Source: a virus
Length of the DNA: 23,609 bases
Virus record (IMG/VR): IMGVR_UViG_3300044635_001006
Span: 1-23,609 of that record
Strand: one strand, 5' to 3'
Numbering within the stretch: position 1 is the first letter of the stretch; every line of letters begins with the position of its first letter. The notes below the pieces were generated by a model. That model searched no databases and had not been told where the DNA came from. It saw only the letters and a list, made by a program, of their open reading frames with translations. The position numbers were made by a program, and so were the translations under genes. Positions 10,787 to 11,037 of this stretch are shown in pieces.

Positions 10787-10819
10787 TTCACCGCCTCGAT
10801 TTGGCCATCTGCGACTGTT

Positions 10820-11003
10820 AAAAAGCCGCTGCCGAATCACACGGATGAACCCGATTTTTGCCGACGGGTCGTGCCCGTCGGTATAGGATTCGGCTAGCGG
10901 CATTGGATCGGCAGGAATCGAACCTGAAACGAACGTCAAGGCGTTGCCCGCGGGACGCGACCCTTTTATTTCGTGCGTGTAGCCACCACCACGCCGCCGA
11001 TCC
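10820..11003 (-). ncRNA. Candidate small RNA with a tRNA-like 5' domain and a terminator-like 3' domain
   Basis: The tRNA-like part, 11003-10905 (99 nt), has GGATCGG pairing with CCGATCC over 7 bp. It also has a D-like arm GCGTG/CACGC (10994-10975) and a T-like arm CAGG-TTCGATT-CCTG just before the 3' acceptor strand. The centre is odd: ACGAA (10974-10970) pairs with TTCGT (10933-10929) around 36 nt that contain another hairpin, and no normal anticodon loop appears. No CCA is encoded. Then GCCGCT-A-GCCGAAT (10901-10888) pairs with ATTCGGCAGCGGC (10837-10825), enclosing hairpin 10881-10861, followed by T5 (10824-10820). The coordinates are from inspection and the function is unknown. Confidence 0.6.
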
Positions 11004-11009
11004 GCAATC

Positions 11010-11037
11010 AGTCTAGCACAATCGCCCGGCGTGTCAA
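11010..11037 (-). promoter_or_regulatory. Strong sigma70-type promoter for the tRNA-like RNA
   Basis: Minus strand TTGACA (11037-11032), 16-bp spacer, TGC-TAGACT with -10 at 11015-11010 and an extended -10 TG. The next GGATCGG starts 7 bases after the -10, exactly where transcription should begin. This is the best promoter match in the window. Confidence 0.72.

Follow-up and report, generated by a model that had tools for sequence, protein, structure and literature searches.

The window, a 23,609-nt stretch of DNA from the IMG/VR virus record IMGVR_UViG_3300044635_001006, holds a tRNA-like unit on its minus strand, the strand of the genes that flank it. A promoter lies upstream of the unit and a second small RNA lies downstream, in the following arrangement.

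11010..11037, minus strand: promoter, with -35 box TTGACA (11037..11032), a 16-nt spacer carrying TG upstream of the -10 box, and -10 box TAGACT (11015..11010)
10905..11003, minus strand: the whole tRNA-frame RNA unit (P1, 2-nt junction, P2 or D-like arm, insert, P3 or T-arm, P1')
10997..11003, minus strand: 5' strand of the acceptor-like stem P1, GGATCGG, pairing with CCGATCC at 10911..10905; P1 covaries across the family
10996..10995, minus strand: invariant junction CG, preceding P2
10975..10994, minus strand: P2 or D-like arm, GCGTG-gtggtggcta-CACGC, a motif that recurs in the family
10927..10974, minus strand: exchangeable insert of 48 nt, in the place of the anticodon and variable arms
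10912..10926, minus strand: P3 or T-arm, CAGG-TTCGATT-CCTG, with a canonical tRNA T-loop
10905..10911, minus strand: 3' strand of P1, CCGATCC, followed by A at the discriminator position
10820..10901, minus strand: separate conserved small RNA, a three-way junction with a 5+8-bp outer stem, two hairpins and T5, served by the same promoter

The anatomy in the original prediction is confirmed at this locus. The extended promoter that it described, TTGACA-N16-TAGACT, is present at 11037..11010 with a perfect -35 box and an extended -10 box, and it is the sole sigma-70-like match in 600 bp (1 found versus 0.3 in shuffles). G11003, the first base of the acceptor-like stem, is the seventh base after the -10 box, in agreement with the proposed start. 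The predicted stem and the D-like and T-like arms all lie on the minus strand (GGATCGG/CCGATCC, GCGTG/CACGC and CAGG-TTCGATT-CCTG). Read from 11003 to 10905, the unit runs GGATCGG CG GCGTG gtggtggcta CACGC, 48 nt of insert, and CAGG ttcgatt CCTG CCGATCC; the T-arm contains the single occurrence of GGTTCRANTCC in the window. The middle lacks an anticodon arm in register and no CCA is encoded after the 3' strand of P1, both as claimed, although CCA could be added after transcription. The bulged stem with an inner hairpin and T5 reported downstream is real (10901..10820). ARAGORN reports 0 tRNA or tmRNA genes, no Rfam model matches at its gathering threshold, and RF00005 has no match.

A single-sequence fold of the 107-nt tRNA-like stretch is at the level of shuffles (z -0.23), and another single-sequence folding was equally uninformative (z -0.06). 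The fold alone is therefore no evidence, and comparison with relatives is decisive for this locus.

Empty and occupied sites

Relatives of the locus were collected via homologues of the neighbouring phosphoesterase. TTGACA and the spacer length are kept in L003, L004, L006, L007, L009, L010, L011 and L014. The three-way-junction RNA is found in 8 sequences; given that its U-run is reduced to UUU in L006 and L011, it may not be a simple terminator. At seven empty sites (L003, L004, L006, L009, L010, L011 and L014), the promoter is followed directly by this hairpin RNA without a tRNA-like unit, and the unit is present among these relatives only in L002, which is identical to the window, and in L007. 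This distribution suggests that the promoter and the three-way-junction RNA are older, and the tRNA-like unit of the window/L002 and L007 appears to have been gained at the transcription start between them. No conserved core and no target duplication were found at the empty sites. The notion of a dedicated gene thus survives in part: the unit does sit at the start of the promoter, but in seven relatives that lack the unit the promoter serves the downstream small RNA.

The L007 locus holds a unit with the insert of the window and a second unit with a different insert, with a 99-nt structured stretch between the two and the hairpin RNA behind them. The shared insert differs between the window and L007 by the length of one T run and occurs in no other unit. 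The 99-nt stretch (L007 6388-6486; z -1.94) ends in ACAGCCGGAGAGACGGC. Its hairpin motif also stands ahead of the L058 and L165 units and of the tRNA-Asn in L071, and a variant precedes the L116 unit. An SNase-like reading frame follows the hairpin RNA in L007, L009, L010 and L014; compared with L009 and L014, the frame is absent from the window at 10787-10819, where the next gene comes instead.

Frame and elbow of the family

An initial scan of IMG/VR with the D-arm motif matched many contigs. Their middles are unrelated but are bounded by GGATCGGCGGCGTGG...CACGC on one side and GCAGG-TTCGAAT-CCTGC-CCGATCC on the other. An exact D-arm/T-arm pattern had zero matches because the D-loop varies. 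Further scans of IMG/VR left P1 free and used short exact patterns running from the junction through the D-like stem (P2) into the D-loop, so that the conservation of P2 is partly ascertainment. They define a family, here called tRNA-frame RNAs, of at least 162 units in at least 157 loci. Closure with a perfect 7-bp P1 and 5-bp P3 was found for at least 60 of 96, at least 46 of 53 and at least 40 of 50 distinct matches, versus 0.3, 0.1 and 0.2 closures in the corresponding shuffled-P1 controls, and these three sets yielded at least 40, 37 and 33 different P1 sequences, about 100 in all. The same 5' pattern in cellular genomes (85k genomes, 257 Gb) gave 46 matches, of which 0 closed at the 3' side. 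The Persinger, phiKX1 and phiAH14a units are left out of the count, as the regular expression found no closure. The family is large and apparently undescribed: searches of Rfam 15 and of the open-licence papers in PMC found no description of it.

As read from the aligned sequences, the frame is a 7-bp acceptor-like P1, a 2-nt CG junction, a 5-bp D-like arm, a 5-bp T-like arm predicted to stack on P1, and an elbow. In one set of 29 units (A6), 101 double-change cells were counted versus 25 in shuffled and at most 13 in slid controls, numbers to be read in light of the fact that closure of P1 and P3 was the criterion for picking units. Pair percentages are inflated for the same reason, and the independent evidence is the shuffled-P1 control and the elbow coupling only. 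A compensatory change, U-A to C-G, is seen in P2 of the prophage unit L225. CCA is encoded in 1 of 157 units of classes A, B, C and E, the four main classes; in 145 of these 157, A directly precedes P3.

The T-loops were not selected for sequence in the scans. Nevertheless, a GTGGG(A)A D-loop is accompanied by a T-loop of the TTCRAAT type, GAAGGA goes with the 8-nt T-loop (T/A)ATCAAGC (WATCAAGC), and GAAAGCAGA goes with AGTAGCGN; in an earlier set, the mutual information of this coupling had p<=5e-5. Pair 19-56 taken alone is weakly supported in a GGATCGG-dominated set (57-80 of 500 shuffles were as good), and it is the coupling at the level of classes, not this pair, that is strong evidence. 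Such coupling should be expected of an elbow made from two touching loops. The canonical U8-A14 is replaced by C8 and G14, so that recognition by tRNA enzymes is an assumption.

The window unit is a member of this family, as a variant. Membership is defined by a 7-bp P1, the CG junction, a GCGYG/CRCGC arm and a 5-bp P3 with matched elbow loops, as scored by a model that has not been trained on the candidate. Covariance model R2, whose training set left out both the window and L007, scores the window unit at 44.9 bits (E 1.1e-6), with 62.7 and 57.6 bits for the two L007 units, 30.7 (a tRNA-Ser) and 24.5 bits for ordinary tRNAs, and zero matches in the empty-site relatives. Model R1 gives the window 60.9 bits, the window being in its training set; R1 matches to L231, an ordinary tRNA-Ser, and to L232, a coding stretch, were discarded. 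The P3/P1 junction of the window unit is one base shorter than in L007, and P1 has an eighth pair, C10996-G10912, so that the 12 stacked pairs of this copy are split 8/4 versus 7/5 in other members. The copy also deviates in its 10-nt D-loop and in having T rather than A before P3, and the copy may be slightly eroded.

Inserts and genomic placement

The inserts range from about 3 to 195 nt, are mostly unrelated to each other, and in 131 of 162 cases have no homologue in the set. On average they fold no better than shuffles (mean z -0.49), and their complementarity to targets among the loci collected is at shuffle level. An anticodon arm in register is present in 1 of 162 units (0.14 expected), the second unit of L007, with UGG; ARAGORN calls two of the 162 units tRNAs, both of class A. 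The key property, which the original prediction did not include, is a fixed frame with a swappable insert. Flanks that are 90-98% identical enclose unrelated inserts in L028/L070/L167, L175/L176, L095/L148 and L070/L141. Conversely, 97-98% identical inserts lie between unrelated flanks in L071/L167, L159/L176, L247/L262 and L337/L388; overall, inserts shared across unrelated flanks and across frames of different elbow type are 84-98% identical. For example, the class A frames of L247 and L262 and the class C frame of L409, which differ in their loops, enclose one insert. This insert forms two hairpins whose stems are rewritten by compensatory changes while the loops GGGAACAAGCG and CACAATCACAGAGGCGCAC are unchanged, and on this pattern it looks like a specific functional RNA. 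L353 (class B) and L418 (class C) likewise have a common insert in different frames. The recurrence of the same inserts, with compensatory changes, in different frames shows that those inserts are constrained and that insert and frame are independent of each other.

Other inserts have features of their own. A conserved insert of about 140 nt in L355, L380 and L429, with the motif CCGCAGAGAGAAAGGC...GTCGGCCT.TGAGGAT, is related to pieces near other units. The insert of the unit at L109 2647-2771 itself holds a second acceptor/T-arm pair, as a nested tRNA-like RNA, and inner T-loop motifs occur in L098 and L070 as well.

Most units follow closely after a gene on their own strand; they sit in tRNA arrays or in intergenic gaps of phage genomes. 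A canonical tRNA lies within 1 kb of 20 of 162 units, on the same strand in all, versus 9.6 expected for random positions in the same loci on either strand. A gap of 2-9 nt separates unit and next tRNA in L381, L417, L357, L312, L243, L284 and L296, which implies shared processing. Together with the P1/P3 covariation and the loop coupling, placement in tRNA arrays upholds the idea of tRNA mimicry without an anticodon.

Closed units are found in the cultured phages DMCA (host Caulobacter vibrioides CB15), Orimi01, PotUPM1 (host Pseudomonas otitidis), POI1126 (host Ochrobactrum), Pan3 and AP1, where they are unannotated or overlapped by a hypothetical reading frame; the cultured carriers include phages of Pseudomonas, Caulobacter and Ochrobactrum. 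BLAST against named phages with the window or with one GGATCGG unit found no similarity, whereas other elbow classes did match, and named plasmids had no sequence similarity. Cellular units occur in Planctomycetota (2 in 392 genomes) and Pseudomonadota (2 true of 3 in 390) and add further P1 sequences; three of these four lie beside phage helicase, primase, Sak4, anti-repressor or terminase genes. Pfam searches of 74 neighbouring proteins identified no common partner, and most neighbours are not recombinases.

Some neighbouring RNAs are themselves unusual. L229 (about 1400-1490) has a tRNA-Leu-like, anticodon-less RNA with a GCAA-capped hairpin as its anticodon arm, adjoining a unit and tRNA-Ser and tRNA-Arg genes. 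On the minus strand of L070, just behind the unit at 10854-10964, lies a tRNA-Asn-like RNA whose anticodon arm is greatly enlarged, where L071 has a normal one.

Function and alternatives

Sequence comparison documents the frame and its covariation, the elbow coupling, the absence of an anticodon arm, the exchange of inserts and the placement in tRNA arrays or intergenic gaps. The most probable explanation is a tRNA frame that is processed by RNases and presents exchangeable small-RNA inserts. The transcript would fold like a tRNA body and be released by host RNase P and by the enzymes that mature tRNA 3' ends, except that the 5' end of the window unit would come from transcription start +1 instead of cutting. 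The compact frame would protect the RNA and the insert would be presented as a trans-acting small RNA. Phages keep and trade inserts, as would be expected of functions under arms-race selection (regulation, counter-defence or exclusion). In the window, the unit appears to have been gained exactly between the pre-existing promoter and the conserved three-way-junction small RNA.

Such a unit would be the natural counterpart of the engineered tRNA scaffold of Ponchon and Dardel, in which the acceptor, D and T arms are kept and the anticodon stem-loop becomes an insertion region for any RNA (PMC3753655). The two architectures match, and the frame may likewise carry and stabilise its insert after tRNA processing. 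However, the scaffold is man-made on human tRNALys, whereas the units are natural and carried by phages, and they differ in several non-tRNA elbow types, in C8/G14 and in a conserved P2 sequence.

The main rival is a decoy, which the original prediction had also considered, here acting via the frame alone: the tRNA body would compete for a factor of the host or of a defence system that recognises acceptor and elbow (a tRNA nuclease, RNase P, the CCA enzyme or a tRNA-sensing defence), could not be cleaved without an anticodon, and would carry the insert as filler. This is possible but unlikely. Strict conservation of the frame, systematic absence of the anticodon arm, minimal inserts of 3-13 nt (L171, L159 and L151) and the second anticodon-less RNA beside the L229 unit are all consistent with it. 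YrlA is tied to Ro/Rsr and a Ro-binding stem. It is also a tRNA-mimicking noncoding RNA with D- and T-like arms, for which competitive inhibition of a tRNA nuclease has been proposed (PMC7790460). However, no Ro/Rsr-type partner gene is near the units and no variable insert is described for YrlA; a search for Y RNA/YrlA gave no Rfam match to E 10 (the presence of YrlA in Rfam is unconfirmed) and no common partner among the 74 neighbouring proteins. Similarly, evasion of anticodon nucleases has been proposed for phage tRNAs whose anticodon loops are altered (PMC10264068), but those are decoding tRNAs that carry loop mutations, whereas the units, some of which share tRNA arrays, have no anticodon arm. 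A decoy leaves the exchangeable, internally conserved inserts unexplained, since filler should drift rather than be swapped wholesale and then kept at 84-98% identity across flanks and frames with compensatory changes. Moreover, several elbow types argue against a single binding partner.

A second alternative places the function in DNA, with the frame as a folded or homologous cassette or recombination site through which phages swap segments, and the RNA irrelevant. Integron attC sites combine a conserved structure and a variable terminal part with cassette exchange, and the exchange of inserts is cassette-like. An integrase lies beside the DMCA unit, a partial match follows directly after the Persinger integrase, and genes for RecT, ERF and Sak4 (single-stranded DNA annealing) are near some units. 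Nevertheless, attC has another topology and the units lack attC boxes. Coupling between D- and T-loops, together with T-loops of the TTCRAAT type, marks a folded tRNA elbow, and units lie flush in tRNA arrays on the strand of the tRNAs; both point to RNA and make a DNA cassette improbable. The scarcity of recombinases among the neighbours and the empty sites without conserved core or target duplication argue the same way.

It is very improbable that the units are unusual tRNAs competent in translation, whether tRNASec-like, allo-tRNAs or tRNAs with a removable insert. tmRNA, of which ARAGORN finds none here, lacks a D-stem and codes for a tag peptide; its tRNA-like domain resembles the units in having an acceptor and T-arm without an anticodon, but the units have a D-like arm. 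The window copy resembles tRNASec and allo-tRNAs (PMC7609411) in its long middle or variable region and 8/4 acceptor division. Those RNAs, however, are aminoacylated and possess an ordinary anticodon arm, which the family units do without; the usual division in the family is 7/5. tRNASec (RF01852) is the best sub-threshold Rfam match of the window at 18.8 bits, and this and another weak score of 21 bits are below the gathering score of 47. tRNASec moreover requires a UCA anticodon and an 8/5 stack, versus 8/4 (window) or 7/5 in the units; for allo-tRNAs (8/4 or 9/3 branch), the 8/4 stack is present in the window only and a functional anticodon arm is absent. The possible UGG arm of the second L007 unit and the two ARAGORN calls stand against an arm in register in 1 of 162 units, two calls in 162 and missing CCA. 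Finally, the reading as a decaying type II tRNA is contradicted. The window seen singly might suggest it, as might a P3/P1 junction one base shorter than in L007, but frames with compensatory changes preserve both halves in well over 100 contigs around middles that are swapped wholesale, whereas decay should erode the ends no more slowly than the middle.

The processed tRNA frame with exchangeable inserts may belong to a broader picture, for and against which the balance is about even: a modular small-RNA platform in which a carrier shaped like a tRNA, with several elbow types orthogonal to one another, matures through the host tRNA machinery and delivers payloads, traded among phages and among carrier types, in phage-host or phage-phage conflict. 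The family supplies a ready set of candidate phage small RNAs, and its frames offer natural, possibly orthogonal RNA scaffolds for engineering. The tRNA elbow itself, it would seem, can be rebuilt with non-tRNA loop pairs such as GAAAGCAGA/AGTAGCGN and GAAGGA/WATCAAGC. The family also bears on the question of why phages carry tRNA arrays, as part of the content of some arrays lacks any means of decoding.
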